In this document: positions 9,343 through 34,190 of the stretch, in pieces
Layout of the letters: each line of letters starts with the position of its first letter
How positions within the stretch are numbered: position 1 is the stretch's first letter
NCBI RefSeq assembly: GCF_009389715.1
Contig: NC_052399.1
Coordinates: forward strand, 7,442,585 to 7,506,584
DNA length: 64,000 nt
From: Phoenix dactylifera
Taxonomy: Eukaryota; Streptophyta; Magnoliopsida; Arecales; Arecaceae
Direction: 5' to 3'
Program-made: the position numbers and the translations under genes
The notes under the pieces: model-generated
What the model was told of the DNA's origin: nothing
Seen by the model: the letters and a program-made list of their open reading frames with translations, nothing else
Database searches by the model: none

Positions 9343-9649
9343 GCTACAACTAAAGCAAAAAGTGAGTGAGGACATTCAAGCAATAACCATATGGTGCACT
9401 AGGATATCATTTTTATAGAACTGGTGACATCTGTAACTCGACTTTATCGATAATGAGGATGGACTTTACTGGTGTTTGCCTCATGTTTGCAATGAATACT
9501 TTTTTATTGTTCTCCCCTTCGATGAGATGTATGCAATGTACATGGTTATTGAGAGTCTAGTTGCAAGTAATGTCAGAATAACCTAGATTTTCTTTTTCTT
9601 TTTTTTCCCTAGGTTGTGGTACTGTTTAACTGCTCATATTGTAAAACAA

Positions 9650-10900
9650 ATGGCATCAGCAGCAGTCTCGATTCTGTCAATCGGCTCGATTGCTTCTTAC
9701 AGTGCTCAGACCACCTTGGGAGCAAGACCAAAGCACTCCTATGTTAGTTACCATGCTCCAAATTTTTTCAGGGGTTTTAGCGGTCTGAAGGCATCACTAT
9801 CTGTAAGCTTTGAATCGGAGGCATCCTTCTTGGGCAGTGGAAGCAATGCTTCCCTCTGGGAGTCATTCAAGCCAAATTTGGATAGACCAAGGCTGAGATC
9901 CTCAAATCAACTGCTGCCGCAGGCTTCATCTTATAAGGTGGCTATTCTTGGTGCTGCTGGGGGGATTGGTCAACCCCTAGCACTTCTGATCAAGATGTCT
10001 CCACTTGTTTCAGCACTGCATCTCTATGATATTGCAAATGTCAAAGGAGTGACTGCTGATCTGAGTCATTGTAATACCCCTTCCGGGGTTCTGGGTTTCA
10101 CAGGACCATCAGAATTAGGCAATAGTTTGAAAGGCGTGGATGTGGTTGTCATCCCTGCTGGAGTTCCAAGGAAGCCAGGTATGACTCGTGATGACCTATT
10201 CAACATCAATGCGAACATTGTGAAGACACTGGTGGAGGCTGTGGCAGATAATGCTCCAGATGCTTTTATCCACATCATTAGCAATCCAGTGAATTCTACT
10301 GTCCCAATAGCTGCAGAGGTTCTCAAGCAAAAGGGTGTCTATGATCCAAAGAAGCTGTTTGGTGTTACAACACTGGATGTTGTGAGAGCTAACACATTTG
10401 TTGCACAAAAAAAGAACCTGAAGCTCATTGATGTGGATGTACCTGTTGTGGGAGGTCATGCTGGGATTACCATCTTACCATTGCTGTCCAAGACGAGACC
10501 CTCTGTGACCTTCACAGATGAAGAAGTAGAAGAGCTGACTGGGAGGATCCAGAATGCTGGGACAGAGGTGGTGGAGGCAAAAGCTGGTGCTGGATCTGCA
10601 ACTCTATCTATGGCCTATGCTGCAGCCAGATTTGCTGAGTCATCTCTCCGAGCATTGGATGGAGATGGAGATGTTTATGAGTGCTCCTTCATTCAATCTG
10701 AGCTGACTGAGCTCCCATTCTTTGCATCGAGAGTTAAGCTTGGGAAGAAAGGTGTTGAAGCTGTGATCTCTTCTGAACTTCACGGTCTGACTGGGTATGA
10801 GGCTAGAGCACTGGAAGCCCTGAAACCAGAGTTGAAGGCTAGCATTGAGAAGGGTGTCGCATTTGCACAGAAGCAGATGGCAGCAACAGCGGCTGTTTGA
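9650..10900 (+). CDS. pdNAD-MDH: Plastid NAD-dependent malate dehydrogenase, chloroplast precursor
   Basis: The enzyme interconverts malate and oxaloacetate with NAD(H) in plastids, for redox balance in the dark and in non-green tissue. The CDS encodes 416 residues without an intron. The first 93 or so residues are Ser/Ala-rich and poor in acidic residues, a typical transit peptide. The mature enzyme begins near [19 protein letters not shown]. The nucleotide-binding glycine motif is at about 101-107. Substrate arginines fall in [12 protein letters not shown] (about 173-184) and DVVRAN (R246). N212 is in SNPVNS, and the catalytic His is in [11 protein letters not shown] (H270). All key residues are present. 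I chose the ATG at 9650, which follows an inferred splice acceptor at 9612; an upstream in-frame TTG at 9614 is not a likely start. The length and transit peptide fit the plastid form and not the mitochondrial or peroxisomal forms. Confidence 0.95.
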
Positions 10901-14137: not shown

Positions 14138-15961
14138 CTACCAATAATCTCCACAAGAGCATAATCCATTCTCAAAGTGATGGAAGCGATTGAGATCTCT
14201 GAGAATTATTTTCCTATCAAACACCATTGAAACTAGCTTCGCCATCGAATGGCAGTCCCTGCAGACACGGAGGTTCTTAACAACACGGAGGGCTGTCCCA
14301 GGAGGGGAGTTTATAAGCCCGAAGGCGATCGCTAGCTTCTCGCTGTGATATCTAAGGCTAACCTCCTTGTCTTCCTCCCCCATACCCACATGAAACACCT
14401 GACAAGTATCAGGCACATACCCAACCAACTTCAATTGATTCACCACCTCATCTACCATTCTGTATACCTCTCTAGACTGTGGGTGCTTGCCATCCCCAGA
14501 GAAGAACTCATGGACCATGTTATCCACCTCAATTGAGCTGCAACCAGGCACCTTCACGATCCGTTGCTCGCCCATCAATTTCCTTATCCGGTTCACATCT
14601 TCCCATCTCCCATCAGATGCACACATGTTCGAAAGAATCACATAATCCCCACCATGAGAGTCATCCAGCTCTAAAATCCTCTCGAAGACACGCTTGCCAA
14701 GATCAACATTCCCATGGCCTCCACAAGCTGATAACAGTGTTCGCCATAAGATCGGTGTTGGCTCATTTGGTAAACCATCGATGAAGTCATAAGCCTCGTC
14801 GAGTCGCCCTGCTCGAGCCAGCAAATCCACCACACACCCATAATGCTTGATTCCTGGAACAATGCCATAACCACTCCTCATGCTATGGAAATACCCCAGC
14901 CCTTCATCCACCCTGCCTGAATGACTGCAAGCATACAATACTCCAAGAAATGTAATGTCATCAGGTTTAATCCCCTCCCTCTGCATTTCTTCAAAAAGAG
15001 AGATGGCTTTGCTCCCATGCCCATGAACTGCGTAGGCCACGATCATGGCCGACCAAGCTTGGGTATCCTTCGAACTCGTCTCCCGAAACACTTGCACAGC
15101 ATCTTCCAAGCTCCCGCACTTGGCATACATGTCGATCAATGCGGTGTTCACCTTTATGTATGAATCAAATCCATTCCTTCTGATGTACTCATGGATCCAT
15201 TTCCCCAGTTCAAGCGCCCCCGACAGGGCGCATGAGGAAAGAACACTGAGCATCGTGACATCCGTTGGCTTGAGGCCCTTTGCTTGCAATTCCCGAAACA
15301 AAGCTAGTGCCTCGCTAGGACGGCTGCTCCGAACACAAGCTGTGATCATCGAATTGTACGAAACCACACATGGCTCCTCCATCCCATCGAAAAGGGTGCG
15401 AGCAGCGCGAATGCTGCCGCACTCGGCATACATGTTTACAAGCGTGGGGCGCACGTAGATGTTCTCGGCGAGCCCGAGCTTCACGGTGATGCCATGGGCT
15501 TGCATCCCTTCTTTTGAGGCTCTGGCGCTTGCACATGCCTTCAGAAGGGAAGGGAAGGTGTAGTCATCGGGGGCGACGCCGGTCTCGAGCATGCGGATGA
15601 AGAGGGAGAAGGATTGGATTGGGGTGTGGGAGCGGGAGTAGCCGCGGGACATGGTGTTGAAGAGGACGACGTCGGGGTGGGGAATTCGGTCGAACAGGCG
15701 GTGGGCGTAGTCCATGGAGGAGGTTTTGGGATGGAGGCAGCAGGAGGTGATGAGCTTGGTGAGGAGAGAGGGGTGGTCCTGGAGATGGGATTTGATGGCG
15801 AGGGCGTGGAGCTGCTGGCGTTCTCTCAAGGTGGTGCACTTGGAGAGGAGGGAGACGAGAGATGGGAGGGGAGTCTCTATTGGTTTGGGAGTTGGGTTAT
15901 TGTGGTCGCAGGGTTTGGATTTGGCGGGAGAGAGGGGATTGATCGTTAGAGCTCTGCTCAT
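14138..15961 (-). CDS. OTP85: DYW-class PPR protein, chloroplast RNA-editing factor (OTP85-like)
   Basis: This intronless gene encodes a 607-residue PLS-subfamily pentatricopeptide protein. The N-terminus (about 30 residues) is Ser/Pro/Lys-rich, consistent with an organelle transit peptide. PPR repeats run from about residue 33 to 410 (signatures such as PDVVLFNTMSRGYSR, DYTFPSLLKACASA, NTALIDMYAKCGSLEDA and DTQAWSAMIVAYAVHG). Then come the E/E+ region (VPGCSSIEV, HEFFSGDGKHP) and a complete DYW domain. The domain has the deaminase-type HSEKLA zinc/catalytic motif, CRDCH, and the terminal CSCGDYW. Such proteins bind a specific organelle transcript and edit C to U. From memory the closest match is Arabidopsis OTP85 (At2g02980), which acts on a plastid ndhD site. 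Orthology is inferred from similar length and motif wording and needs a phylogeny. The start ATG at 15961 is the first in frame. Confidence 0.9.
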   Translation of the reverse strand: MSRALTINPLSPAKSKPCDHNNPTPKPIETPLPSLVSLLSKCTTLRERQQLHALAIKSHLQDHPSLLTKLITSCCLHPKTSSMDYAHRLFDRIPHPDVVLFNTMSRGYSRSHTPIQSFSLFIRMLETGVAPDDYTFPSLLKACASARASKEGMQAHGITVKLGLAENIYVRPTLVNMYAECGSIRAARTLFDGMEEPCVVSYNSMITACVRSSRPSEALALFRELQAKGLKPTDVTMLSVLSSCALSGALELGKWIHEYIRRNGFDSYIKVNTALIDMYAKCGSLEDAVQVFRETSSKDTQAWSAMIVAYAVHGHGSKAISLFEEMQREGIKPDDITFLGVLYACSHSGRVDEGLGYFHSMRSGYGIVPGIKHYGCVVDLLARAGRLDEAYDFIDGLPNEPTPILWRTLLSACGGHGNVDLGKRVFERILELDDSHGGDYVILSNMCASDGRWEDVNRIRKLMGEQRIVKVPGCSSIEVDNMVHEFFSGDGKHPQSREVYRMVDEVVNQLKLVGYVPDTCQVFHVGMGEEDKEVSLRYHSEKLAIAFGLINSPPGTALRVVKNLRVCRDCHSMAKLVSMVFDRKIILRDLNRFHHFENGLCSCGDYW

Positions 15962-16502
15962 TGTAACTGGTTCTTGGAAAATTCAGGAAAAAAAGAATTG
16001 AAGGAAGTTAAGACATGAGAGAGATCTTATTTTCCTAGCTCTTTATCTTTCCCTTTATGTATTTTTTAGCAGTTGTAGTACTGGCTCTGAGCCACGAATT
16101 CACTTAAGGCCACCAGTTTCCCTCCAAGGTCTAGGAAACAAATCGAAGCACTCCTCCAAAATTTGAGAGATATATCTCTCTCATATCACCGCAAGAGCCT
16201 AGATCTTCGTAGAGATCGAGAGCCAAGGGTATTTGCGCCCTTCATATCCGATGAAAGGCCCAGTGACTAAGAGAAGGTAGAAGAAGTACTATTACTTCAA
16301 CTAGAATCACGGCTATAACACCGTGCTCCCAACTCAAGGATGAAATTGAAGTACTCATCCGACGCGAATGGCTAGATTGGTACGTGTGCCTCCAGCGGGG
16401 CCAAGGAGTGCTCATTTCGAGCTCCGGTCCTCCGCCTCAAAAACAAATTAACAACCGCCGAGCGACCGGTGTTATTAGCACTATCACTCGCAGTACCTCG
16501 AG
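15962..16502. other. PPR 5' flank running into transposon-derived DNA
   Basis: The first 100 bp or so are the presumed PPR promoter and leader. From about 16080 the sequence becomes compositionally like the retroelement remnants to the right (GC-rich, many stops). The last 8 bases, ACCTCGAG at 16495-16502, are the left target duplication of the next element. Confidence 0.35.
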
Positions 16503-17769: not shown

Positions 17770-18945
17770 TGACTCAAACGACCTCTTCAGATCCATAATA
17801 ACCCGAGCAGGAGAACCGGCTGGCTCGAGAGTCAAGGGACCTCTTCAAGTCTATAATGACCAAAGCAAGAGAACCGGTCATCCCGCCAAAGGTTCGGCTA
17901 GTCAAGCGACCTTTTCAGGTCCATAATGGCTTGAGTAGGAGAACCGCCTGCCGTGTTAAAGGCTCAGCGAGTCAAGCAACCTCTTCAAGTCTATAATGGC
18001 CCAAGCAAAAGAACTGGCCGCTGCACTGAAAGCTCAATGAGTCAAACGACATCTTCAGGTCTATAATAGCCCAAGCAGGAGAACCGGCTGTTGCACCGAA
18101 GGCTCGGCGAGTCAAGCGACCTCTTCAGGTCTATAATGGCTCGAATAGGAGAACCAGCCGCTGCGCTGAAGGCTTGGTGAGTCAAACGACCTCTTTAGAT
18201 CCATAATGGTTGGAGCAGGAGAATCGGCCATCGTGCTGAAGGCTCGGTGAGTCAAGCGACCTCTTTAGATCCATAATGAATCGAGCAGGAGAACCAGCCT
18301 CCGTGCCGAAGGCTCGATGAGTAAAACGATCTCTTCAGATCTATAATGGCTCGAGCAGGAGAATCGGCCACCGCACTGAAGGTTCGACAAGTCAAGCAGC
18401 CTCTTTTTATCTATAATGGCCCAAGTAGAAGAACCAGCCGCCGCGCCGAGGGCTCGACGAGTTAAATAACCTCTTTAGGTCTATTATGGCCAGAGTAGGA
18501 GACCGGCTGTCGTACTGAAGGCTCGGTGAATCAAGCAATCTCTTTAGATCTATAATGGCCCGAGCAGGAGAACTATCTGCCATCCCGAATTCTCGACGAG
18601 TCAAACGACCTCTTTAGGGCCATAATGGCCCATGCAAGAGAACCGACTACCACGCCGAGGGCTTGACGAGTCAAGCGACCTTTTTAGGTCCATAATGGTC
18701 CGAGTAGGAGAACCGACCACTATGCCACCAAAGGTTCAGCGAGTTACAAGATCTCTTCAAGTCCATAATGGCTCGAGCAGGAGAATCGGCTACCGCACCA
18801 TAGGCTCAGCAAGTCAAGCGACCTCTGTAGGTCCTTAATGATCCGAACAGGAGAACCGACTGCTGCATTGAAGGCTCAGCGAGTCTATCAGTCTCTTCGG
18901 GTTGGCAATAGCCTAAGCAAGAGAACCGGTCACCACGCCAAAGGA
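17770..18945. repeat. Tandem array, about 16-17 units of 70 bp
   Basis: The anchor CTCTTCAGGTCTATAATGGC recurs exactly every 70 bp at 17841, 17911, 17981, 18051, 18121, 18191, 18261, 18331, 18401 and 18471. It then continues with a one- or two-base slip to about 18893. Each unit also contains GAGCAGGAGAACCGGC and GAAGGCTCGGCGAGTCAAGC. Copies differ at perhaps 10-20 percent of sites, so the array is not recent. It lies next to a gag-like relic, in the position of internal tandem repeats of gypsy-type elements. Reading frames through it are periodic shadows. Confidence 0.85.
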
Positions 18946-19229: not shown

Positions 19230-19818
19230 TTACTCAAGCAAAAAGGAAAAACAGACAAAAATGGCAAGGCAGAAGACTTCATCCCTTGTCCTAGCCCTTA
19301 TCAGCGCCTTCTTCATTGCTGGCATCTCCGCCTTTGCCACCGACAGGGTCACCACCTTCATCAATGCCGTCATCGTTGTCATCGAGGACCTAGAAGTCCA
19401 ACCCTGGGAAAAGTCGTCGGGCTTGAGCTCGACATGCCTCAATGCCCTTACCAAAGGCGTTGGCCGCAATCTCTAGGGCCTCCTCTCAAAACTCCTTTGA
19501 GGTGTGGTACTCTTTGATCGCCTATACGACCTTTGCTCGACACGAAGCGCCCACTTGCTGGCCTTGGCAACTCATCTGTCTGCCTCATTGGATCTGTATG
19601 GCCAAGGTGCGGACTTTAGTTGACCTGGACTCATCCTCGTTCGACTTGACCTTCACATTGACCGATTTGGTCTTTGCCTCGGCCACCATGATCTTTGCCT
19701 CGAGCAACTTGGCCCGCTCCATGGCCCCTTTCCATTTCAACTAGAGCATCGAACTAGGCTTCGTGAACCTCTCGGCCAACCGCTCTGTCTCCCTGAGCAC
19801 ATGGGCATGTTGAAAAGG
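19230..19818 (-). pseudogene. Decayed gag-like coiled-coil frame of an older retroelement, C-terminal part
   Basis: On the minus strand, stretches such as AMERAKLLEAKIMVAEAKTK and EYHTSKEF.EEALEIAANAF run towards ARRLFPGLDF. This coiled-coil plus F-x-G..C/A-R..FP-LDL pattern occurs in plant gypsy-type gag-related proteins. Several in-frame stops interrupt it. The frame is cut at its right end by the Sirevirus insertion, and its upstream part reappears at 31634. The host 5-mer AAAGG at 19814-19818 is the left target duplication of that insertion. Confidence 0.55.
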
Positions 19819-20610
19819 TGTTGCCCAGATAGACAACCCAAGAGGGGGGGGGTGAATTGGGTTTTAAAATAATTTAGATATTTAAAACGTTGTGGATGAC
19901 TAATTAAAACTATTGCAAGTTGTTTAATTAAATGCTATGTGCTGTGAGTGATAAGAGAGGAAGAAGAAGAGAGACAATCAAACACAAACACCAAGTTTTA
20001 TAGTGGTTCGGAGCTAACCCTTGCTCCTACGTCCACTCCCCAAGTCTCACTTGGGAATTCACTATAACCCCCTTGGATTACAGCCGGTTGTTTTCCAAGC
20101 TCACAACCAAACTTGTTGTTTTACGAGCTCACAATGAACTCGGTCGGTTTTCCCAAGCTCACCGACTAGAACCACCCCGATTGTTTTTCCGGGATCACAA
20201 TCAAACCCTTACACACGTTGGTTTTAATAACTAGGCTCACCAACTAACCTCTATACCCTTGATTCAATCCCCCGATTGAATCAAGCAAATACAAGTTGTA
20301 AATAGAATAGACAAACAGAAAAACAAGCTTCTCAAAAGCAGATGAAAGACAATATAATCTAAAAGGAGTTTAGAAGCCCTCAAACGCTTTTAAGTTGGAG
20401 AAAAGGAATGGCTTCTTAAACTTCGGTCTCCTCTTGAATGTGTAGTCGACTTGAATGCAGGAGGAGCTTCTTTAATTGTTGGGAAGATGTAGGTGGATGC
20501 AGTAAATGCAGATCTTCCCTTTTTCTCGTTGAAGAACAAGTTGCAGAGTTGAATGCTTGAATACTTGGAGTGGAATGGTTGTTTTTCTGCCTTGCTACAG
20601 TCCTCTGTGG

Positions 20611-20620
20611 CTATTTAAAC
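20611..20620 (-). promoter_or_regulatory. Predicted TATA box of the left LTR
   Basis: The minus strand reads GGTTTAAATAGCC here, about 90 bp downstream (in element sense) of the palindrome array. The related LTR at 32584 has CCTATAAAAGG at a comparable position (33206-33216), which supports this placement. A second candidate, CACTATAAAACTTGG near 19992-20006, lies in the conserved U5-side block and is the alternative. Confidence 0.5.
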
Positions 20621-20709
20621 CAACCCCCACGGAAACTAGCCGTTAGAGAGCTTTTTCTGCCCGTTCTGCACACTCTGTACAGTCTGACAATGTGTCCGTT
20701 GGTGGGTTG

Positions 20710-21618
20710 GAGTCGACTCGCGCGATCAGGAGTCGACTCGTCTGTAGCGGGAGTCGACTCATACTTTTTCGGAGTCGACTCTGCAACTGTTCCAGATTTG
20801 AATTAAAGTTGCCTTCGCGACTGGGAGTCGACTCGTCTTGACCCAGAGTCGACTCGCCAACTTCTGGAGCTGACTTGGCTTTCTCGGAGTCGGCTCATCC
20901 CATGAAGTCCGTGGACGTATTTTTGAATTTGGTCCACTCGAGTCGACTCGACTGTCCTGGGAGTCGACTCGGCGCTCAGAGCCCGAACTCCCTATCTTCT
21001 GTCTTTTGGCTCGTCCAGTCTTGGAGTCGACTCGAGCTTCCTCGGAGTCGACTCGGCTCTCAGTTTCCGAAACTTGGTCTTCTGCCCTTTTGATGTGAAG
21101 CTGCCTTGGAGTTGACTCTAGCTGTCTGGGAGTCGACTCGAATCTCAGAGGCAGTAACTTGGTCTTCTGTCTTCTTTGTGGTCGCGGAGTCTCGGAGTCG
21201 ACTCGCGTAATGCGGGAGTCGACTCGAATCTCAGAGTCCAGAATCTGCCCTCTGACTTTTTCTTTGTGTACTGCTGAGAGTCGACTCTTGCTGTCTTTGG
21301 AGTCGACCTGCCAACCATCGGAGTCGACTCGCGTTCCACTGGAGTCGACTCGAATCTCAGACCCGAAAACTGCTCTCTGACTTTTTCTTTGTATTCCTCT
21401 TGGAGTCGACTCTTACTACCCTGGAGTCGACTCGGTGAACATCGGAGTCGACTCGCACACTTCGGGAGTCGACTCGTTGACAGGTTCTGAGTTGAAGCTT
21501 TCTGTTCGTCTGTCTGTTCTCAGTCGGAGTCGACTCGTACTGATCCGGAGTCGACTCGAGCTCGTGCCAGTGAACTTGATACGCTTGGAGTCGACTCGTG
21601 ATACTCTGGAGTCGACTC
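20710..21618. repeat. Array of 24 GAGTCGACTC palindromes in the left LTR
   Basis: Twenty-four exact copies of the 10 bp perfect palindrome occur in 909 bp, plus at least four one-mismatch copies (GAGTTGACTC, GAGTCGGCTC, GAGCTGACTT, GAGTCGACCT). Spacing is irregular, from about 12 to 90 bp, and the spacers are not copies of one another, so this is not a simple tandem repeat. Nearly all copies carry GG before and CG after on the plus strand. The array lies in the predicted U3 upstream of the TATA box. Confidence 0.95.
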
Positions 21619-21799
21619 GAGTCTCAGACTTTGGTTCAAGCTGACTTCTTAACTTATCCAAAAACTATGAACCAAGTCTTGAGACACTTAGACAAGATTT
21701 TCACTGAAACACTTAATTGAATTCATTAGTAAACAAGAAATATACTCAAATGCTTTGAGCTCATCAAAATCAAATAAGGTTTTAATCAATCACTCCACA

Positions 21800-22395
21800 A
21801 TCTCTCCCTTTTTGATGATAACAAAACATTGAGTATATGTAAGGTGAATTGCACAATAAACAATCAAATAAAATCCATAAATGAATTCAAATGTCTGGTA
21901 ATTCAATTTATCCAAGCTTGAAAGGAGTGAAACAATAAATTTCGGAGTTAAAGCTCCCCCTTTCATTTGGAATTATATAAGCCTTCATATCATGCATTTA
22001 ATTGTTTGGCTTATATATAATTAATGATTTAGCTTTCTTAAAATTTCAGATTCTCCCCCTCAACATATGCATTCTACTTTGTTTTGATTCTTTGAATTTC
22101 CTTTTAATGCTTTGAAGTTTTTGAACTGAAATTTTGGTTTTTAGAGAAAAAATCTGTCAATTTGTTTTTGAGTAGGATTCAGCTAATCTCCAAATATCCC
22201 TTGAATAGATTCTGGAGATTACTCCATTAGGAGCCCCAAAAGAGAGATAATGAGCCTCGAGGTACCGAATCCAGTCAGAACAAATTTGTGTGTTTTAAGA
22301 GTTTATCTTTTTATTGATTTCCATTGATTCCTTTTACATATTTTATACATATTTTTTCTTTTACATATTTTATACATATTTCTCCCCCTTTTTGT
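21800..22395 (-). promoter_or_regulatory. Polypurine tract and repeated PPT-like tracts next to the 3' LTR
   Basis: Immediately beside the LTR the minus strand reads AAAAAGGGAGAGAT (21800-21813), a good polypurine tract for plus-strand priming. Further purine tracts of the same type occur at about 21953-21965 (AAAGGGGGAGC), 22051-22060 (AGGGGGAGAA) and 22381-22393 (AAAAAGGGGGAGA). Two of the four are followed by similar TGATGATAACAAAAC or TGTCATCATATC text. Multiple PPT copies upstream of the 3' LTR are reported for Sireviruses. Confidence 0.75.
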
Positions 22396-22563: not shown

Positions 22564-24110
22564 CTACGGTCTCCTCGAGGATGTAGATCCTCCTCTCGAG
22601 GATGTATCTCCTCCTCTCGAGGATGTGACTCCTCCTCTCGAGGATGTGGCTCCTCCTCTCGAGGATGTATCTCCTCGAGGCATGCGCTCCACGAGTGATT
22701 GGACCGCATTGGTCACGTTCTCTAGCTGGCGAATGATGGCCTGGATGGCCCTGCTCTGTGTCGTATCCAGCTCAAGTACTGACTTCTGCAGTCCGTCCAG
22801 CTTGTCGATGAGCACATTCGACAAGCGCTCGGCCCCTGCGGTGGTGGTGGACATGTCACGGCCGATGTCATCCCGCATCCGTCGAGTGGTGCTCGTGACC
22901 TCACTCATGCTGTGGAACTGGGCCTGTATCAAGGTCCTCATGTTGTATATCTCTTACCGCACCTCAGCCGTCATGTCTGTCACGGCTGTCAGGGAAGGGA
23001 CCAATGCGGAAGATGTGGGCGCAGGAGAGGGAGTAGGCACCGAACCTCGGAGCTCCCGAAGCAACTCATCCCTCAGATCTCGAACTATCTCCTGCCGCAG
23101 CTCCCGGAGCTGCTCAGAATCAATCCCTCCATGGATGGTGGAGCCGAGGAGGAAGGTCCAGCGGAGGTGGTAGGAGCAGGAGTGGATGGAAGATCTGGTA
23201 AGTCTGGAAAGTCAGAGTCTGGCTCAGGACTGGGGGAAGGTCTGGTGGTCTGTGTGGTGAGGGAAGACTTCCTAACCCAGATCCCCTCTCTCTTCCGAAA
23301 CCCCATCCTGTGTAGGGTCCCTGCACGCGTGCGATCAGTCCATCGCAATGCGCGAAAGGGTTCCCCCTCAGGAATGGGAATCTCGTACTCCCTAAACAGA
23401 AGAGTGAATAGCATGCCGTATGGGAGGGTGAGCCTAGGTCTATCTAGGGGCTCACACAGATACCTATAGATGAGTTTGGGGAAGTTGATTGGAGTGTCCT
23501 GAAGAATATAAAACATCAGAGCTAGGTCTCTCTCATTTACAAAATCAAATCTCCCTGTCTTAGGAAAGATGGACCTAGACAATATACTCAAGAGGATCCG
23601 CACCTCAATCGGTAGTGAGCTAGCGGATACCTCGTCTAGAGGTGACTGGGGTGGATGCCCTAGAACGGCCGTAAGGGCCTCAACCCTGTCCTCAGGGTGT
23701 GTGGGAGCCACCCCTACTTGTGGAAGGTGGAGGATGTGGGCAATGAGATCCTCCGTAACGAACAGAGGGACACCGGCTACTGTGCCCTCGATACCCCCAT
23801 CTCCCCGATGGACGGTACCGTAAAACTCTCTAACAAGGCCAGGGTAAGTGGGGAGGTCTAATGTAAGGAAAAACTCTAAGCCCTGGACCCTAAGCCTATC
23901 ACCTATGGTGAACCCTTCCCGGGAGAGATAGTCGAAGTCGACATATCTCCCGGTGGTGACGGCCTTCCCGGCCAATGGCCTCACGGGAACCGCCCTAGGC
24001 GGGGAACGAGCCGGAGGTGGTGGCCTCGCGGGATCGTGCCGCGCCTTGGAGCGCCGCTCGGGACCGGCCTCGGGTCGGGACCTCTTCCGGACTACGGTCT
24101 TACGCGGCAT
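22564..24110 (-). pseudogene. Sirevirus third ORF (env-position ORF), broken by a frameshift and a stop
   Basis: This ORF lies between pol and the 3' LTR. It starts at 24110 with a basic Arg/Pro-rich stretch (MPRKTVVRKRSRPEAG). A folded domain follows at about residues 45-290 (FLTLDLPTYPGLVREFY, GVPLFVTEDLIAHIL, FDFVNERDLALMFYIL), of the kind annotated in plants as a putative transposon protein. After that come a Pro/Ser-rich linker and a coiled-coil tail ending in 7-residue SRGGxTS repeats. The first frame ends at 23085. The coiled-coil part continues in another frame after an apparent one-base shift near 23130, then meets a stop near 22952, and the tail is open from 22941 to 22564. I see no clear membrane anchor, so the envelope label used for this position is not supported here. 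Confidence 0.7.
22571..22678. repeat. 21 bp coding tandem repeat, about five units
   Basis: CCTCCTCTCGAGGATGT plus four variable bases repeats every 21 bp. On the minus strand it encodes RGGxTSS heptads at the C-terminus of the third ORF. Each unit contains the palindrome CTCGAG. Variation is confined to the one variable residue (D, A or V). Confidence 0.9.
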
Positions 24111-24359
24111 AATGACCTAGACGGGATAAAAAAAAACTAAAGGACAGAGAAAGGTCGACGGAGAAGGCTTGGGACCGACCGTGGACGACCTAGGAAGGGA
24201 TGAAAACCCAAAGACCGGTGAAGAATCGATTGGAAAAAGCCTTGGGAAGGATTGGGGACGACCTAGGAGTCGGCTCTAGGGCTTGTGAACAGTGGCGGCT
24301 TGAGAAAGAAGTGTTTTCGAAACGACAAATCTAGGGTTAAAAAGTCGGATCCCGACTGC

Positions 24360-24514
24360 GAGTCGACTCGACCTCGAGTCGACTCCAGAATATGCGTGAG
24401 TCGACTCTCCTTATGTGCCTGTAGACCTCGAGTCGACTCCCGACTATATGTGAGTCGACTCCCCCTCTGCTGCCATTTATGCGAGTCGACTCCCGCAAAT
24501 GCGCGAGTCGACTC
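24360..24514. repeat. Internal array of seven GAGTCGACTC palindromes, opposite flank polarity
   Basis: Seven exact palindromes lie in 155 bp between the end of pol and the third ORF. On the plus strand the flanks are CG before and CC after, the reverse complement of the LTR form (GG before, CG after). A degenerate copy (GAGCCGACTC) follows at about 24522. The spacers are 10-20 bp. The position, about 250 bp upstream of the third ORF start, would suit an internal regulatory region. Confidence 0.9.
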
Positions 24515-24705
24515 CCCCTTAGGAGCCGACTCTGAAACTTACTCGAGTCGTCTCTAACTTTGGCACGCACCTAAAAATCATGCTTCGTTTGTGCCAAACG
24601 AGGGAAAATCACTAAATTAAGATCTGATTTGATGATCATTGAAGAGAAACTCTATTTTAACCACAAACTAATCATCAAAATCAATGAATCTAGTGGAAAC
24701 TACCA

Positions 24706-27700
24706 CTAGGATGGATCAATCACTCCTAATCCCCTCCTAAGCACACTAAACCTCTCTTCACTTAGGGGTTTTGTAAAAATATCTGCTAATTGATCATCAG
24801 TACAAACAAATTGGAGTGTCACATCACCATTCAATACATGATCTCTTATGAAGTGATGTCGTATCTCAATATGTTTAGTTCTTGAATGCTGAATTGGATT
24901 TTTAGTTAGATTAATGGCACTTGTATTATCACAATTAATGGAAATTTTATCTTGTTTAATGCCATAATCTTCTAGTTGTTGTTTAATCCACAAGATTTGA
25001 GCACAACAACTCCCGGCTGCAACATATTCAGCTTCAGCAGTAGATAATGCAACCGAGTTTTGTTTCTTGCTAAACCATGAGATAAGGTTTTCTCCTAGAA
25101 ATTGACACGACCCGCTGGTACTTTTTCTATCAAGCTTACATCCAGCGAAGTCTGAATCTGTGTATCCTATTAAGTTTAGGCTAGATTCTTTAGAGTACCA
25201 TAGCCCTATATTCTTAGTTCCTATTAAATATTTAAAAATTCTCTTAACTGCAACTAGATGTGATTCTTTAGGATTAGCCTGATATCTAGCACATATGCAA
25301 ACACTAAACATAATATCAGGTCTACTTGCAGTAAGATACAATAAGGATCCTATCATACCTCGATACAGTTTCTGATATACAGATTTACCTGATTCATCTT
25401 GGTCTAATTTGCATGATGAACTCATGGGGGTGCTGATTGATTTGTTTCCCTCCATATCAAACTTCTTGAGCATCTTCTTGATATATTTGGCTTGATGGAT
25501 GAAGATGCATCCTTCAGATTGTTTGATTTGGAGTCCAAGGAAGTAAGTCAGCTCTCCCATCATGCTCATCTCAAATTCACTCTGCATCAAGTTAGCAAAT
25601 TCTTCGCCGAGACGATTGTTAGTAGCACCGAAAATAATATCATCAACATAAATCTGTACTAACAGCATATCTTGGTTTTTCTTTTTCAGAAATAGAGTTG
25701 TATCTACATTACCCCTAGAGAACTCATGTTCTAATAGGAATTTGCTAAGTCTCTCATACCATGCTCTAGGTGCTTGTTTCAAACCATAAAGTGCTTTGTT
25801 CAATTTATAAACATGATTAGGGTATTGATGATTTTCAAAACTAGGAGGTTGTTCTACATATACCTCCTCATTAATATACCCATTTAAAAATGCACTTTTT
25901 ACATCCATTTGAAATAGTTTGAAGTCCTTAGAGCATGCATATGCTAATAATAGTCTAATAGCCTCAAGTCTAGCTACAGGAGCAAAGGTTTCATCAAAAT
26001 CTATACCTTCTTCTTGATTATAACCCTTTGCTACTAGTCTAGCCTTATTCCTTATAACAGTTCCATTTTCATCAAGTTTATTTTTATAAATTCATTTAGT
26101 ACCTATAATTGGATATTCAGAAGGTCTCTCAACTAGATTCCACACTTTGTTTCTAGTAAATTGGTTTAGTTCTTCTTGCATTGCATTTATCCAATTTACA
26201 TCATTTTCGGCTTCTTCTATATGTTTGGGCTCAAAGTGTGAGACAAAAGCTAGATGGTTATTCAAATTCCTAAGGGATGCTCTAGTCCTAACCGGTTGAG
26301 ATGGATCATCTAGAATTAGTTCCTTAGGATGCCCGTGAGCATACCTCCAAGCTTTAGTTAGCCCATGATCCACAATAGCCTCTTGGCTTGATGATGCTCC
26401 TTCACTCAACTTTTGATTATCATCTTGTAATGCCATCTCATCTATCTTTTCTTCAAGAATTTCAACATCATCATCAAAATTATCTTTCTTACTCGAGGAG
26501 ATGTCACTAGAATCATCAAATACAACATGTATAGATTTTTCTATAACTAAGGTTCTTTTGTTAAAGACTCTATAGGCTTTGCTAGTTGTAGAGTAGCCTA
26601 AGAAAATTCCCTCATCAGATTTAGAGTCAAATTTACCTAGATTATCTTTCCCATTATTATGAACAAAACACCTACATCCAAAAGCATGAAAGTAATTAAC
26701 TTTTGGTTTTCTGTTTTTCCAAAGTTCATAAGGTGTTTTCTTTATGATGGGTCTCAATAGAACTCTATTTAATATATGACAAGAAGTATTAATGGCTTCT
26801 CCCCAAAAGTACTTAGGGAGGTTACTTTCACATAACATAGTTCTAGCCATTTCCTCTAGAGTTCTATTTTTCCTCTCCACAACTCCATTTTGTTGTGGTG
26901 TCCTAGGTGCAGAAAAATTATGGGTTATCCCCTTTTTACTACAAAATTCCTCAAATGACTGATTTTCGAATTCGGTACCATGGTCACTTCTAATAGCTAT
27001 TACTGAGGTATCTCTAGCATTGGTTACTTCTTTATGGAATTTCTTAAAAACAGAAAATGCTTGATCCTTATGTGCTAGGAACATGACCCATGTGTACCTA
27101 GAATAATCATCTACAATAACTAGACCATATTTATTTCCACCTAGGCTTGTTGTTTTAGTTGGTCCGAATAGGTCCATGTGTAATAATTCTAGAGGCCTAG
27201 AGGTAGAGACACATTTTATGGATTTAAATGAGTTCCTAGATTGTTTGCCAAATTGACATGCTTCACATATTTTGTTCTTTTCAAATTTTAATTTTGGCAA
27301 ACCTATCACGGAATCTCTTTTAACTAGTTTAGTTATTGTGTCCATGCTTGCATGACCTAACTTACGGTGCCACAACCAACTAGCATCATTATCCTTAGTT
27401 TCATTAACAACTAGACATTGGTTATGTTTTGCAAGATCTTCAAGGTCTACAATATATACATTTCCTCGTCTAATTCCTTTAAAAACTAAACTATTATCAT
27501 TAGGGTTTGTTATAATGCATAGTGATGGTTTAAACATAACATCATACCCTTTATCACATAATTGACTAATGCTTAATAAGTTATGCTTAAGACCATCAAC
27601 ATATCTAACATTATCAATATAAGTAGAAGGGGTGATTTGAACTTTACCAATACCAATGATGTGACCTTGGTTGTTGTCTCCAAAAGTCACAGCACCTCCC

Positions 27701-27810
27701 TTCTTAGCTTCAAGGGTGAAAAATTGATCCTTGTCACCCGTCATGTGTCTTGAGCAGCCACTGTCCAAGTACCAGCAGTTTTTGTTGACCTTGGCTGCAA
27801 GACACTCCTA
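24706..27810 (-). pseudogene. Ty1/copia pol: protease, integrase, reverse transcriptase, RNase H; one nonsense codon
   Basis: The frame runs from just after the stop near 27813 to 24706. Domains in order are the aspartic protease active-site block (WYLDSGCSRHMTGD near 27775), a gag-pre-integrase zinc region (WHRKLGHAS, CEACQFGKQ), and the integrase core (LHMDLFGPT, SDHGTEF, QQNGVVERKNRTLEEMART). Then come reverse transcriptase ([41 protein letters not shown]) and RNase H ([39 protein letters not shown]). The only break is an in-frame TGA at 26094-26092, where the family has Trp. The pol frame is offset by one base from gag, with a gag stop at 27821. Most functional motifs are intact. Confidence 0.93.
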
Positions 27811-27820
27811 CACAAGTAGA

Positions 27821-29602
27821 TCATATAATCTTAGGTACCCAAGTTTTCTTGGGTCCTTCATGGTTAGTCAAGTTGGTTCCTTTTGGAACCCATACCCTTT
27901 TAATTTTTCTTTTTGTTTTACTTTTCCTATAGTCACATACATTTGCCTTATGTCCTATAGTCCCACAACAAAAGCAGGTTATTTTCTTAGTTTTAGTTTC
28001 CCCAGCTTTAACAAAGAAGTTACTAAGAAGTTTTTGTTTATTTCTTGGTTTATACCCTAAACCCGCTTTATTAAATACTGCTCGTTGACTATTGAGTATC
28101 ATATTTAACTTTTCAGAGCTATATGTAAATTTTTCAACTAAGGGTTTGTATTTGTTAAGTTCTTTAGTTAGTGTTTGATTTTCTGCTTTTAGATCATTAA
28201 GTTCTTTTGTGAGATCCTTATTTAAGATTTGTTTATGTTTTTTAAGTTCTGAAAATTCCTTAGTTAGTTTTTCATTATCTTTAGTTAAGGTATTAGTCTT
28301 TTGAGTTAAAAGTTGGTTGCTTGTCTTAAGTTCTATATTTTCTTTGGTGATTAAATCCTTATCCTTAACTAATTTATCGTATTTATGTAGGTATGATTGA
28401 TAAGCTATTTTTAGTTCTTTATTCTTAAGATTTATTGCCTTATATTCTATCATTAATTCATTAAATGCATCATAAAGTTCATTAAAAGAAAAATCAAGAT
28501 GCGTGTCGGAAGTTACCTCATTTTCATTGGCCATGAAGCAGAAATTGGCCTTCTCTTCTTGTTCATCATCTGATGAAGAGGATAATGAATCGGAGTCGGA
28601 TAGTGTTGTGACAGGAGCCTTCTTCTTCTTGTACTTGCTCCCCTTTTTCAGTAAAGGGCACTCAGCTCTTATGTGACCCGGCTTCTTGCACTCGTAACAC
28701 CCAATCCCCTCATTTTCCCTTTCCTTACCTTTGTCCTTGCGGTAGGAATTAGAGGGGCCTCTCCTTTGATGATAGGACTTCTTGTGGTTGATGAATTTTC
28801 TGAATTTGCGCACAAGAAGTGCCTCACCATCATCTTCCTCATGTTCTTCTTCTTCACTGCTGCTACTGCAAGATAAGTCCTTGTTAGATGAAGTAGATTT
28901 TAGAGCTATTACCTTTTTCTTATGGGAGGACTCTTCCTCGTTGTGTTGTTTCATGGTTAGCTCGTGCGTCATTAGGGATCCAAGAAGCTCCTCAAGTGGT
29001 AATTTGTTCAGGTCCTTGGCTTCTTGGATTGCGGTCACTTTAGCTTCCCATGACCTTGGTAGACACCGAAGGATTTTCCTGACAAGCTCACTGTTAGTAT
29101 AGTTCTTGCCAAGGCTTTTTAGGCCATTGACAATATCAGTAAACCTAGTAAACATGCATGTAATTGTTTCATTAGAATCCATTTTAAATAGTTCATATTT
29201 ATGAACCAAAATATTTATTTTGGATTCTTTGACTTGATTCGTGCCCTCATGGGTCACTTCAAGTCTGTCCCAAATCTCTTTTGCAGAATTGCAAGTAGAG
29301 ACCCTATTGAATTCATTTCTATCTAAGGCACAATAAAGCACATTCATAGCTTTAGAGTTTAGTTGTGCCTTTCTCATGTCATGTTCATCCCAATCCTTTT
29401 CTAGTTTGGGTACCGTGACACCCTCTACATATATGGATGGGATGTATGGCCCATTTACTACAATGGTCCACATCTCATAGTCTTGGGCTTGGATGAATAT
29501 TCTCATCCTAGCCTTCCAATATGAGTAGTCGGATCCATTAAAGAATGGGGGTCTTTGGGTGGACTGACCCTCAATGTGGGAAGATCCAAATAGGGTTGTC
29601 AT
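27821..29602 (-). CDS. Sirevirus gag (nucleocapsid polyprotein)
   Basis: The 593-residue frame starts 35 bp from the primer-binding site. An N-terminal copia gag domain (about 15-230; YWKARMRIFIQAQD, AKEIWDRLEVTHEGT, LVRKILRCLPRSWEAKVTAI) is followed by an acidic Ser/Glu stretch and a CCHC zinc knuckle (CYECKKPGHIRAEC, about 305-318). A long Lys/Glu/Leu coiled coil (about 375-500) comes next, then a second CCHC knuckle (CFCCGTIGHKANVC). A two-knuckle gag with an extended coiled coil is typical of Sireviruses. It forms the virus-like particle and packages RNA. The frame ends WVPKII at a stop where the polyprotein would normally be expected to continue towards protease. Confidence 0.9.
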   Translation of the reverse strand: MTTLFGSSHIEGQSTQRPPFFNGSDYSYWKARMRIFIQAQDYEMWTIVVNGPYIPSIYVEGVTVPKLEKDWDEHDMRKAQLNSKAMNVLYCALDRNEFNRVSTCNSAKEIWDRLEVTHEGTNQVKESKINILVHKYELFKMDSNETITCMFTRFTDIVNGLKSLGKNYTNSELVRKILRCLPRSWEAKVTAIQEAKDLNKLPLEELLGSLMTHELTMKQHNEEESSHKKKVIALKSTSSNKDLSCSSSSEEEEHEEDDGEALLVRKFRKFINHKKSYHQRRGPSNSYRKDKGKERENEGIGCYECKKPGHIRAECPLLKKGSKYKKKKAPVTTLSDSDSLSSSSDDEQEEKANFCFMANENEVTSDTHLDFSFNELYDAFNELMIEYKAINLKNKELKIAYQSYLHKYDKLVKDKDLITKENIELKTSNQLLTQKTNTLTKDNEKLTKEFSELKKHKQILNKDLTKELNDLKAENQTLTKELNKYKPLVEKFTYSSEKLNMILNSQRAVFNKAGLGYKPRNKQKLLSNFFVKAGETKTKKITCFCCGTIGHKANVCDYRKSKTKRKIKRVWVPKGTNLTNHEGPKKTWVPKII

Positions 29603-29649: not shown

Positions 29650-31628
29650 TGTTGCCCAGATAGACAACCCAAGAGGAGGGGGTGAATTGGGTTTTAAAAT
29701 AATTTAGATATTTAAAACGTTGTGGATGACTAATTAAAACTATTGCAAGTTGTTTAATTAAATGCTATGTGCTGTGAGTGATAAGAGAGGAAGAAGAAGA
29801 GAGACAATCAAACACAAACACCAAGTTTTATAGTGGTTCGGAGCTAACCCTTGCTCCTACGTCCACTCCCCAAGTCTCACTTGGGAATTCACTATAACCC
29901 CCTTGGATTACAGCCGGTTGTTTTCCAAGCTCACAACCAAACTTGTTGTTTTACGAGCTCACAACGAACTCGGTCGGTTTTCCCAGGCTCACCGACTAGA
30001 ACCACCCCGATTGTTTTCCCGGGATCACAATCAAACCCTTACACACGTTGGTTTTAATAACTAGGCTCACCAACTAACCTCTATACCCTTGATTCAATCC
30101 CCCGATTGAATCAAGCAAATACAAGTTGTAAATAGAATAGACAAACAGAAAAACAAGCTTCTCAAAAGCAGATGAAAGACAATATAATCTAAAAGGAGTT
30201 TAGAAGCCCTCAAACGCTTTTAAGTGGAGAAAAAGAATGGCTTCTTAAACTTCGGTCTCCTCTTGAATGTGTAGTCGACTTGAATGCAGGAGGAGCTTCT
30301 TTAATTGCTGGGAAGATGTAGGTGGATGCAGTAAATGCAGATCTTCCCTTTTTCTCGTTGAAGAACAAGTTGCAGAGTTGAATGCTTGAATACTTGGAGT
30401 GGAATGGTTGTTTTTCTGCCTTGCTACAGTCCTCTGTGGCTATTTAAACCAACCCCCACGGAAACTAGCCGTTAGAGAGCTTTTTCTGCTCGTTCTGCAC
30501 ACTCTGTACAGTCTGACAATGTGTCCGTTGGTGGATTGGAGTCGACTCGCGCGATCAGGAGTCGACTCGTCTGTAGCGGGAGTCGACTCATACTTTTCCG
30601 GAGTCGACTCTGCAACTGTTCCAGATTTGAATTAAAGTTGCCTTCGCGACTAGGAGTCGACTCGTCTTGACCCAGAGTCGACTCGCCAACTTCTGGAGCT
30701 GACTTGGCTTTCTCGGAGTCGGCTCATCCCATGAAGTCCGTGGACGTATTTTTGAATTTGGTCCACTCGAGTCGACTCGACTGTCCTGGGAGTCGACTCG
30801 GCGCTCAGAGCCCGAACTCCCTATCTTCTGTCTTTTGGCTCGTCCAGTCTTGGAGTCGACTCGAGCTTCCTCGGAGTCGACTCGGCTCTCAGTTTCCGAA
30901 ACTTGGTCTTCTGCCCTTTTGATGTGAAGCTGCCTTGGAGTCGACTCTAGCTGTCTGGGAGTCGACTCGAATTTCAGAGGCAGTAACTTGGTCTTCTGTC
31001 TTCTTTGTGGTCGCGGAGTCTCGGAGTCGACTCGCGTAATGCGGGAGTCGACTCGAATCTCAGAGTCCAGAATCTGCCCTCTGACTTTTTCTTTGTGTAC
31101 TGCTGAGAGTCGACTCTTGCTGTCTTTGGAGTCGACCTGCCAACCATCGGAGTCGACTCGCGTTCCACTGGAGTCGACTCGAATCTCAGACCCGAAAACT
31201 GCTCTCTGACTTTTTCTTTGTATTCCTCTTGGAGTCGACTCTTACTACCCTGGAGTCGACTCGGTGAACATCGGAGTCGACTCGCACACTTCGGGAGTCG
31301 ACTCATTGACAGGTTCTGAGTTGAAGCTTTCTGTTCGTCTGTCTGTTCTCAGTCGGAGTCGACTCGTACTGATCCGGAGTCGACTCGAGCTCGTGCCAGT
31401 GAACTTGATACGCTTGGAGTCGACTCGTGATACTCTGGAGTCGACTCGAGTCTCAGACTTTGGTTCAAGCTGACTTCTTAACTTATCCAAAAACTATGAA
31501 CCAAGTCTTGAGACACTTAGACAAGATTTTCACTGAAACACTTAATTGAATTCATTAGTAAACAAGAAATATACTCAAATGCTTTGAGCTCATCAAAATC
31601 AAATAGGGTTTTAATCAATCACTCCACA
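29650..31628 (-). repeat. Right (5') LTR of the Sirevirus element
   Basis: TG...CA ends, 1979 bp, nearly identical to the left LTR. It drives the element's genomic transcript leftward. The predicted TATA (GGTTTAAATAGCC) is at about 30440-30450. The conserved block GGTTCGG...CCTACGTCCAC on the U5 side is shared with the LTR at 32584. Confidence 0.95.
30539..31447. repeat. Array of 25 GAGTCGACTC palindromes in the right LTR
   Basis: Same array as in the left LTR, with 25 exact copies in 909 bp. The extra intact copy (near 30937) corresponds to the GTTGAC copy in the left LTR. Another (near 31295) keeps the palindrome but has a mutated flank (CTCA where the left LTR has CTCG). Both differences are transitions at CpG sites. 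Confidence 0.95.
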
Positions 31629-31633
31629 AAAGG

Positions 31634-32583: not shown

Positions 32584-34190
32584 TGTTGGCCCAACTAGGC
32601 AACCCAAGAGAGGGGGGGGGGTGAATTGGGTTTTATAAAATTATGCAAAAATAAAATCAAATTCCCTCAAGTTTTTGGATCTAATGAAATAAACTAGATG
32701 CAGCAAGTATAGCAAATAATAATCACAAACATGCAACTAAGTATAGAAAAATAAAAAGAGAAGGGAAGAAAAGTAATATGCAATGGTTTATAATGGTTCG
32801 GTCTCCTTGTAAGCTTACATCCACTCTCTAGGACTCCTTCCTGAGATTTAATCCACTATGCTTATCCAAAGCTTTACAAACTGCTTATTTTTCGGGTGCA
32901 AACAATCTTTATACTTAGTGTTATTCGAGCTAGTCCTTGGTTTATCTACTCCCTCAAACACTCCCTTGTTTATCTAGGGTACAATATTTTCAAGCAATTA
33001 CTCTCTATCACTCAAGCTAACAAGAGCTCTACAACTTTTTTACAATACTTAATCAAAAATAACAAGAATGAAAGCACTACACTTAATTTTTCAACAAAAA
33101 AAGATTTTCACTTGTAAGCACAAGACTCTCTTGATTTCTCTTCAAACTCTATGAATCTCTCTTCCTTCCTTTTTTTTCTTTTCTGTAATATGAAGTGTGA
33201 ACCTCCTTTTATAGGCTTGAGAAGCCATTTTTCCGTTTGAAATAATTTGAAGCTTTGGAAACCCTTTTTCAACATATTTAATGTAGGCGGATTCGGGTCA
33301 GATTTAGTCTTTTACTTTGCAATACCTTTTTGACAAATCAAAAGGCTGAATTTGACTTCGTGGCTAGAGACAAAGTTGTAGCCCTTTAAGTTATCTTTCC
33401 AACCTCATAAGAATCATTTCAAAAGAACATTTTATTGAAAAGTTCTAGCTAAAAGAGTAAACATATGTTAGCCTAAATTATAGCTATAGATGATAGATTT
33501 CATACCCTGTTACTCATAACTAACATTCAAATTTGAAAATATATTTAATATAAAAGTTGTAGCTCTGTAAGTTATCTTTCCAACTTAATAATAATCATTT
33601 CAAAAGGATATTTGGTTGGAAAGTTATAGCTAAAAGAATAAACATATATCAGCCTAAATTACAGCTACGGATAGATAGATTGTAGACCCTATTACTCCTA
33701 GCTAACGTTCATATTTGAAAATATATTTAATATAAAAGTTGTAGCCCTTTAAGTTAAATTTCCAACCTAATAAAAATAATTTCAAAAGAACATTTGGTTG
33801 AAAAGTTACAGCTAAAAAAGTAAACACATATCAGCCTGAATTACAGCTACGGATAGATAGATTGCAGATCCTATTACTCATAGCCAACGTCCAAATTTAA
33901 AAATATATTGAATATAAAAATTTTACATAAATAAATCTTCTTTCCATATCATCAAGAATTGTATTAACATTATATTTCAATAAAATGTTAGGCTGAAAAT
34001 ACTAAAACATGTTCAGAATTCCAGCATTTGCCTTCAAAAAAAATTTTAATTCCTAATTTTTATTTGTTTGCTATAATCATAATAATGAACTAAATTCATT
34101 TGTTTCTTATCATTAAAATCAAATAGTAAACCGTTGAAATTATGGAGTTAAAAATTTTTCCTTTTTTGATGATAACAAACAATAGATACA
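32584..34190 (-). mobile_element. Second, diverged Sirevirus-type LTR with adjoining PPT; rest of element lost
   Basis: It begins TGTTGGCCCAACTAGGCAAC and then CCCAAGAG plus a G run plus GTGAATTGGGTTTT, the same head as the LTR at 19819. Near 34150 it runs into AAATTTTTCCTTTTTTGATG followed by ATAACAAAC, matching the PPT side of the other element. It is therefore the 3' LTR of a minus-strand element whose internal region is missing. A clean TATA box (CCTATAAAAGG, minus strand) is at 33206-33216. The remnant ends within about 600 bp of the apyrase start codon. Confidence 0.75.
33370..33935. repeat. About 183 bp tandem repeat, three units, in the U3 of the second LTR
   Basis: The anchor AAGTTGTAGCCCTTTAAGTT recurs at about 33373, 33555 and 33739. 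Each copy is followed by CTTTCCAACCTAATAAGAAT-like text, AAAAGTTATAGCTAAAAGAG and ATCAGCCTAAATTACAGCTA. A partial fourth copy begins near 33918. The array lies about 160 bp upstream, in element sense, of the TATA box. Confidence 0.85.

Follow-up and report, generated by a model that had tools for sequence, protein, structure and literature searches.

A phased palindrome array in the long terminal repeats of a Phoenix dactylifera Sirevirus, and the extra open reading frame of the element as its possible reader

The window analysed here is a stretch of 64,000 nucleotides from Phoenix dactylifera (contig NC_052399.1, positions 7,442,585 to 7,506,584), and its subject is a long terminal repeat (LTR) retrotransposon on the minus strand which, judged by its sequence, is a Sirevirus-type Ty1/copia element with a young LTR pair. 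A 10-bp palindrome, GAGTCGACTC, is massed in both LTRs and again ahead of an extra open reading frame (ORF) that occupies the position of the Sirevirus 'envelope' gene. The order on the minus strand is gag, pol, linker, extra ORF, polypurine tracts and 3' LTR. Here we present the features of the element, together with a description of the array and a tentative proposal for the protein that may read it.

29650..31628, minus strand: 5' LTR (right LTR), in element sense TGTGG...GCAACA, with the target-site duplication AAAGG at 31629-31633
30539..31447: array within the 5' LTR, 25 exact palindromes GAGTCGACTC with GAGTCGGCTC at 30716 and GAGTCGACCT at 31129
30441..30448, minus strand: TATA-like TTTAAATA (element sense), a motif match only, which follows the last palindrome in element sense at a distance of 90 bp
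27821..29602, minus strand: gag, with Retrotran_gag_2 and a zinc knuckle
24706..27807, minus strand: pol, with GAG-pre-integrase, integrase core and RVT_2, and an in-frame TGA at 26092-26094
24360..24514: internal (second) palindrome cluster, in the stretch that separates pol from the extra ORF, 7 exact GAGTCGACTC
23085..24110, minus strand: N-terminal part of the extra ORF, matching PF20167 (Transposase_32) with an E-value of 7.3e-14, frame broken
22564..22953, minus strand: C-terminal part of the extra ORF, displaced, with long helices predicted in relatives and a 21-bp repeat at its end
21800..22389, minus strand: polypurine tracts, with exact AGGGGGAG at 21954, 22053 and 22382
19819..21799, minus strand: 3' LTR (left LTR), 99.2% identical to the 5' LTR, with the target-site duplication AAAGG at 19814-19818
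20710..21618: array within the 3' LTR, 24 exact palindromes GAGTCGACTC with GAGTCGGCTC at 20887, GAGTTGACTC at 21109 and GAGTCGACCT at 21300
20612..20619, minus strand: TATA-like TTTAAATA, counterpart in the 3' LTR, a motif match only

The window holds 56 exact copies of GAGTCGACTC, whereas dinucleotide-preserving shuffles gave a mean of 0.03 and none of 100 shuffles reached 56; base composition alone predicts 0.0007 copies per 909 bp. A reading made earlier from the letters alone (the sequence-only reading) had reported 25 copies in the right LTR and 24 in the left and had expected a random 10-mer far less than once in this space; its copy numbers and coordinates are confirmed. No exact copy was found outside the element within the window, and none of the 56 lies in the coding spans tested. 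Including near-copies, each LTR carries 27 in-register sites, which in the right LTR comprise 25 exact, one one-mismatch and one two-mismatch copy, so that 3 of 270 letters deviate from the 10-mer; the ten commonest 10-mers of the LTR are GAGTCGACTC and its shifted, overlapping versions. The array was correctly placed in U3 by the sequence-only reading, which had put its end about 90-100 bp upstream of a TATA-like motif (90 bp as measured). CpG is abundant in the array (observed/expected 1.17); elsewhere in the element it is scarce, at 0.54 for the remaining U5-R and for the internal region. Regarding the internal cluster, further one-mismatch copies occur at 24267, 24523 and 24545, and the seven exact copies ahead of the extra ORF contrast with none after it. 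The bases flanking the palindromes differ between the two locations: G is preferred on both sides in the LTR (22 of 25 and 19 of 25), C on both sides in the internal cluster (5 of 7 and 5 of 7), which points to a slightly extended motif that is oppositely oriented in the two clusters and has its symmetric core in common. A coding role of the array, through each copy of which a minus-strand ORF of 217 codons runs, was considered and rejected because steps of 20, 53, 41, 64, 65, 62, 22, 61 and 40 bp break the frame; this ORF is without homology evidence (no homology search was made).

The distances from site to site in the LTR are 20, 21, 21, 53, 21, 41, 53, 21, 63, 21, 64, 21, 65, 21, 62, 22, 21, 21, 61, 21, 21, 21, 61, 21, 40 and 21 bp. 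With the imperfect sites at 30716 and 31129 counted, a step of exactly 21 bp occurs 14 times among these 26, and an irregular spacer length, as described earlier, is not supported. There are 16 short spacers (14 of 11 bp, one of 10 and one of 12) and ten long ones. The ten long steps, too, lie close to multiples of 10.5 (p 0.0006 by jittering, with a mean cosine of 0.69), and when homologous long steps were thinned to leave six, the mean cosine was 0.74 (p 0.003). Most LTR sites are thus spaced by about two, four, five or six helical turns, and they tend to share one face of the DNA. Phasing is looser in the internal cluster, where the steps are 16, 22, 32, 22, 31, 22, 18 and 22 bp.

The sequence-only reading had also called the spacers unrelated, which holds for the sixteen short ones (none of 120 pairs with z>3, relative to shuffles) and fails for the long ones, where five spacers represent a single unit whose copies have diverged (z 2.9 to 8.0 for their 10 pairs). 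Alignment of the spacers as a single longer unit, named beforehand as the sign of a plain tandem repeat, was therefore seen in part, in these five. Tandem Repeats Finder likewise reports units of 85 and 125 bp in the array. That the 10-mer is abundant merely through recent duplication of units holding it is nevertheless very improbable. Within the five related units, 351 of 625 spacer positions are identical (56%) as against 200 of 200 positions of the 10-mers (100%), i.e., 44% spacer divergence with the 10-mers unchanged, as the sequence-only reading had anticipated in suggesting that the 10-mer itself appeared to be what had been kept. The other refuting sign that it named, a 10-mer conserved no better than its spacers, was absent from these units. 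When seven units were aligned pair to pair, the corresponding values were 559 of 1145 for the spacers and 420 of 420 for the motif; note that the aligned units were picked to start at exact palindrome pairs, a choice that favours motif conservation. Moreover, the eleven-base spacers are unrelated to one another, and the internal cluster is separate and has different spacers and flanks. The array has grown partly through duplication of larger units, followed by decay of the spacers without decay of the 10-mers, and such a pattern is the signature either of a 10-mer under selection or of a homogenising process. The two LTRs add little on this point, as one of 16 differences between them lies inside a palindrome (at 21113) and the changes are too few to be informative.

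The assignment of the element, already made in the sequence-only reading, is in line with the published description of Sireviruses (Bousios et al. 2010, PMC2829016); for all articles cited here by PMC number, statements refer to the accessible portions of their text. The domains follow the copia-type order Retrotran_gag_2, gag_pre-integrs, rve and RVT_2, with the integrase ahead of the reverse transcriptase. The junction of the 5' LTR and the primer-binding site reads GCAACA AGTGG TATCAGAGC in element sense, which fits the Sirevirus hallmark of CA followed by ATTGG (or AGTGG) and TATCAGAGC (PMC2829016). A second hallmark consists of several AGGGGGAG in the linker, mostly past the envelope gene, the terminal one lying 10 bp before the 3' LTR (PMC2829016). 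Three exact copies follow the extra ORF here and two precede it, while the terminal tract, which starts 10 bp before the 3' LTR, is the one-base variant AGGGAGAG; variant octamers were reported in 2 of 21 Sireviruses (PMC2829016), which makes the terminal copy a deviation. The two preceding copies, at 24459 and 24512, overlap palindrome edges in the internal cluster. The inverted repeat that Sireviruses have around the junction of polypurine tract and 3' LTR was found by eye (ATACTCAA...TCATCAAAA upstream, TTTTGATGA...TTGAGTAT within the LTR), and a CACCCCCTCC stretch near the 3' end of the LTR is a candidate for the C-rich integrase signal of Sireviruses. The LTRs (about 1980 bp each) differ by 14 substitutions and two one-base gaps, which bears out the earlier view of a young LTR pair. 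All 14 substitutions are transitions, the pattern expected from deamination of methylated cytosine. Despite its young LTRs the copy is damaged, as is evident from the in-frame TGA in pol and the broken frame of the extra ORF.

Palindrome-rich LTR regions have a precedent in Sireviruses, as the sequence-only reading had stated, in the repeated motif (RM) boxes of Bousios et al. 2010 (PMC2829016) and in Bousios 2016, the latter known to us through later citing papers. Like RM boxes, GAGTCGACTC is a short, dyad-symmetric, CpG-rich motif present in many copies in the upper LTR upstream of a TATA box, with additional copies in the linker ahead of an envelope-like gene, so that the architecture matches point by point (PMC2829016). 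The array also agrees with the definition of the class, a palindromic motif of at least 8 copies that precedes the TATA box within the LTR. In the published set, linker copies before the envelope-like gene were present in 9 of 9 elements with the gene and in 0 of 4 without it (PMC2829016), an association for which we calculate p 0.0014, the elements not being independent. The 31 exact copies (24 in the 3' LTR and 7 in the linker) are near the published maximum of 32, whereas for the 3' LTR by itself the highest number given there is 14, against 24 here (PMC2829016). GAGTCGACTC is not among the 13 motifs of that account and lacks the CGG-CCG signature found in 12 of them; given that Tnd-1 is the sole published exception, this core is not strictly defining for the class (PMC2829016). 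The GTCGAC core of GAGTCGACTC does occur in the Vitis motif CGGTCGACCG, and the accessible text makes no mention of 21-bp phasing (PMC2829016). The shared layout of upper-LTR palindromes, TATA motif and pre-envelope copies makes the array a clear member of the RM class with a new sequence. Among the literature matches listed for GAGTCGACTC, none, judged by title and abstract, concerned plant retrotransposons. Paired sites 21 bp apart gave no stretch in viral contigs; prokaryote contigs totalling 257 billion bases had them at five isolated places, which we attribute to chance. Phage records yielded no match to the array.

Palindromes of this kind might act as RNA, being transcribed in the 3' LTR and linker and forming hairpins that either seed small-RNA silencing, as the sequence-only reading had suggested, or protect the transcript. 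The 909-nt sense array folds at -359.1 kcal/mol versus -294.8 (standard deviation 6.5) for 20 shuffles (z -9.9), and the internal cluster at -93.8 versus -61.7 for 200 shuffles (z -8.8). In the maize elements Opie and Ji, palindromes likewise concentrate in the LTR's regulatory portion and a strong secondary structure is predicted, although their motif is CACCGGAC...GTCCGGTG and, for them, small-RNA data exist: maize Sirevirus palindromes were reported as small-RNA hotspots (PMC5311732, PMC10760457, both relaying Bousios 2016). Six non-palindromic replacements of the same composition fold at -252 to -296 kcal/mol; as scrambling abolishes the extra stability, the folding follows directly from the palindromes, would be expected of any palindrome array and is uninformative on function. 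Hairpins require complementarity rather than one fixed 10-mer at 25 of 27 sites, the single-base variants have no partner bearing a matching change, and attracting silencing would not account for retention of the array by the element. A role as RNA is thus judged improbable.

A protein that reads the DNA could be supplied by the host, and the palindromes would then be enhancer sites for a dimeric transcription factor (e.g., a stress-related one), the extra ORF being unrelated to them. In favour of this reading, the GTCGAC core and its variant GCCGAC (in GAGCCGACTC, at 24523) resemble DREB/CBF-type sites. The position of the array upstream of a TATA-like motif also suits it, as do the palindromic motifs of Sireviruses without an envelope gene (4 of 13) and a comparison of the published motifs with a plant cis-element database, which gave mainly stress-related sites (PMC2829016). 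On the other side, the motif varies between elements although their hosts are shared or related (Table 3, PMC2829016), which is not what a fixed host factor predicts, linker copies go along with the envelope gene, and conservation spans all ten positions, beyond the needs of a six-base core. A host factor is considered a serious candidate, albeit a rather doubtful one.

Attention was turned to the extra ORF because the palindrome precedes just two transcription units, the element and the extra ORF, and because VANDAL transposons of Arabidopsis have VANC proteins, which bind short motifs massed in the non-coding repeats of their own elements (Hosaka et al. 2017, PMC5735166). The likeness lies in a short motif concentrated in the non-coding regions of the element. 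The differences are that the carrier here is a copia-type LTR retrotransposon, whereas VANDAL is a Mutator-like DNA transposon, and that the motif is a 10-bp palindrome here versus the 9-bp YAGTATTAY in VANDAL (PMC5735166). The PF20167 family carries the label 'putative plant transposon protein'. A first search for relatives of the extra-ORF protein yielded 16 and a second search two more. Four of them, 486-534 residues long, share 86-91% identity with the query across 96% of its length; for a relative from Phoenix dactylifera (date palm) the identity is 44%. Seven proteins were measured: their N-terminus is basic and their highest 19-residue hydropathy is 1.18 to 1.52, below the value of 1.6 that marks a membrane segment, so that no membrane-like stretch of the kind expected of a retroviral-type envelope (signal peptide, transmembrane segment) was detected in them. 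Near the end of the ORF, a 21-bp tandem repeat (22574-22676, 4.9 copies, 91% matches) encodes RGG-type peptide repeats, whose copy number varies among relatives (P0001-P0004) and which we liken to the variable regions reported for VANC proteins.

In a model of a full-length relative, one domain is predicted well, and two long helices at the C-terminus are predicted with moderate confidence. Since the only matches of this model (predicted local distance difference test, pLDDT, 70.7) were to helical bundles, the domain was then modelled by itself; the window's own domain, built from 19 sequences, reached a pLDDT of 88.6 and a predicted template modelling score of 0.87. The extra-ORF protein is tentatively predicted to resemble the DNA-binding anti-silencing protein VANC, for which VANC21 structures exist (9lnj/9lnk), and the element may encode its own palindrome reader. 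Sequence homology to VANC is undetectable, and the relatives add long C-terminal helices. The domain model gave no match at E<=0.001 in PDB or viral models, and sequence searches of PDB did not recover VANC21. The VANC sequence domains DUF1985 and DUF287 were not reported for three proteins at E<=1 and were absent among the 25 families listed, of 45, for 19 members at E<=10. No relative was confirmed in viral contigs, where seven pattern matches were without tblastn support.

The reading we favour, while stopping just short of calling it probable, is that the array forms the cis half of a self-recognition system whose reader is encoded by the element's own extra ORF. From the motif, its positions, its conservation and its phase, we infer that a sequence-specific protein would bind the palindrome as a dimer and occupy many phased sites on one face of the DNA, and that, once bound, it would open or activate both promoters, that of the LTR and that of the extra ORF (its own). 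The binder would be the extra-ORF product, whose basic N-terminus, putative VANC21-like domain and predicted long C-terminal helices would be suited to binding and, in the case of the helices, to dimerisation. By binding the non-coding motifs of the element, such a VANC-like protein would counteract silencing in cis and in trans. In this view, tandem duplication, both of 21-bp-phased pairs and of units of about 85 bp, supplied most of the additional sites. Still more guardedly, we suggest that in this Sirevirus lineage at least, the 'envelope-like' gene might encode no envelope but a VANC-like anti-silencing protein that binds DNA sequence-specifically, with the palindromes of Sireviruses as its co-evolving self-targets. 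Two observations weigh against an element-encoded reader: 4 of the 13 published palindrome-bearing Sireviruses have no envelope gene (Table 3, PMC2829016), and by our count 7 of 16 elements with an envelope gene are not listed with palindromes (Table 2, PMC2829016). Elements with palindromes and no envelope gene might be served in trans by the protein of a relative, or by a host factor. Sunflower elements of the SIRE lineage are reported to show sharply lower CG methylation between the LTRs (PMC12844716), which is compatible with anti-silencing, but is located off the LTR and was tied to no protein in that account. In a literature search with most subscription journals outside its scope, no report was found that links Sireviruses and VANC (which does not prove absence), describes the Sirevirus envelope protein as DNA-binding, ties a 'putative plant transposon protein' to a retrotransposon, or presents a VANC21 crystal structure with DNA-binding.

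In the neighbourhood of the element, a 60-bp match (82%) to the first 55 plus-strand bases of the LTR at 32584-32642 is perhaps the end of an older related LTR. A GC-rich 70-bp tandem repeat of 14.8 copies (17822-18858) adjoins the element, and a 182-bp tandem repeat of three copies (86% matches) lies at 33372-33919. Two long ORFs were classified by eye, one malate dehydrogenase-like (9587-10900, plus strand) and one pentatricopeptide-repeat-like (14138-15982, minus strand).

The array itself belongs to a described class, to which the present analysis adds the 21-bp phasing, the internal cluster and a proposed interpretation of the 'envelope' gene as VANC-like. The sequence-only reading had overlooked this cluster, the phasing and the possible element-encoded factor. 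Sireviruses make up about one fifth of the maize genome (PMC10760457), and the authors of the 2010 study found no common binding factor for their palindromes (PMC2829016). A single hypothesis would cover both the palindrome arrays and the envelope-like gene, each so far without explanation. If it is true, transposon-encoded anti-silencing would extend from Mutator-like elements to LTR retrotransposons, one protein fold for evading host silencing would be common to retrotransposons and Mutator-like DNA transposons, and there would be a reason for the differences in palindrome from family to family. Such proteins would also widen the supply of sequence-specific epigenome tools, an application already proposed for VANC by its authors (PMC5735166).
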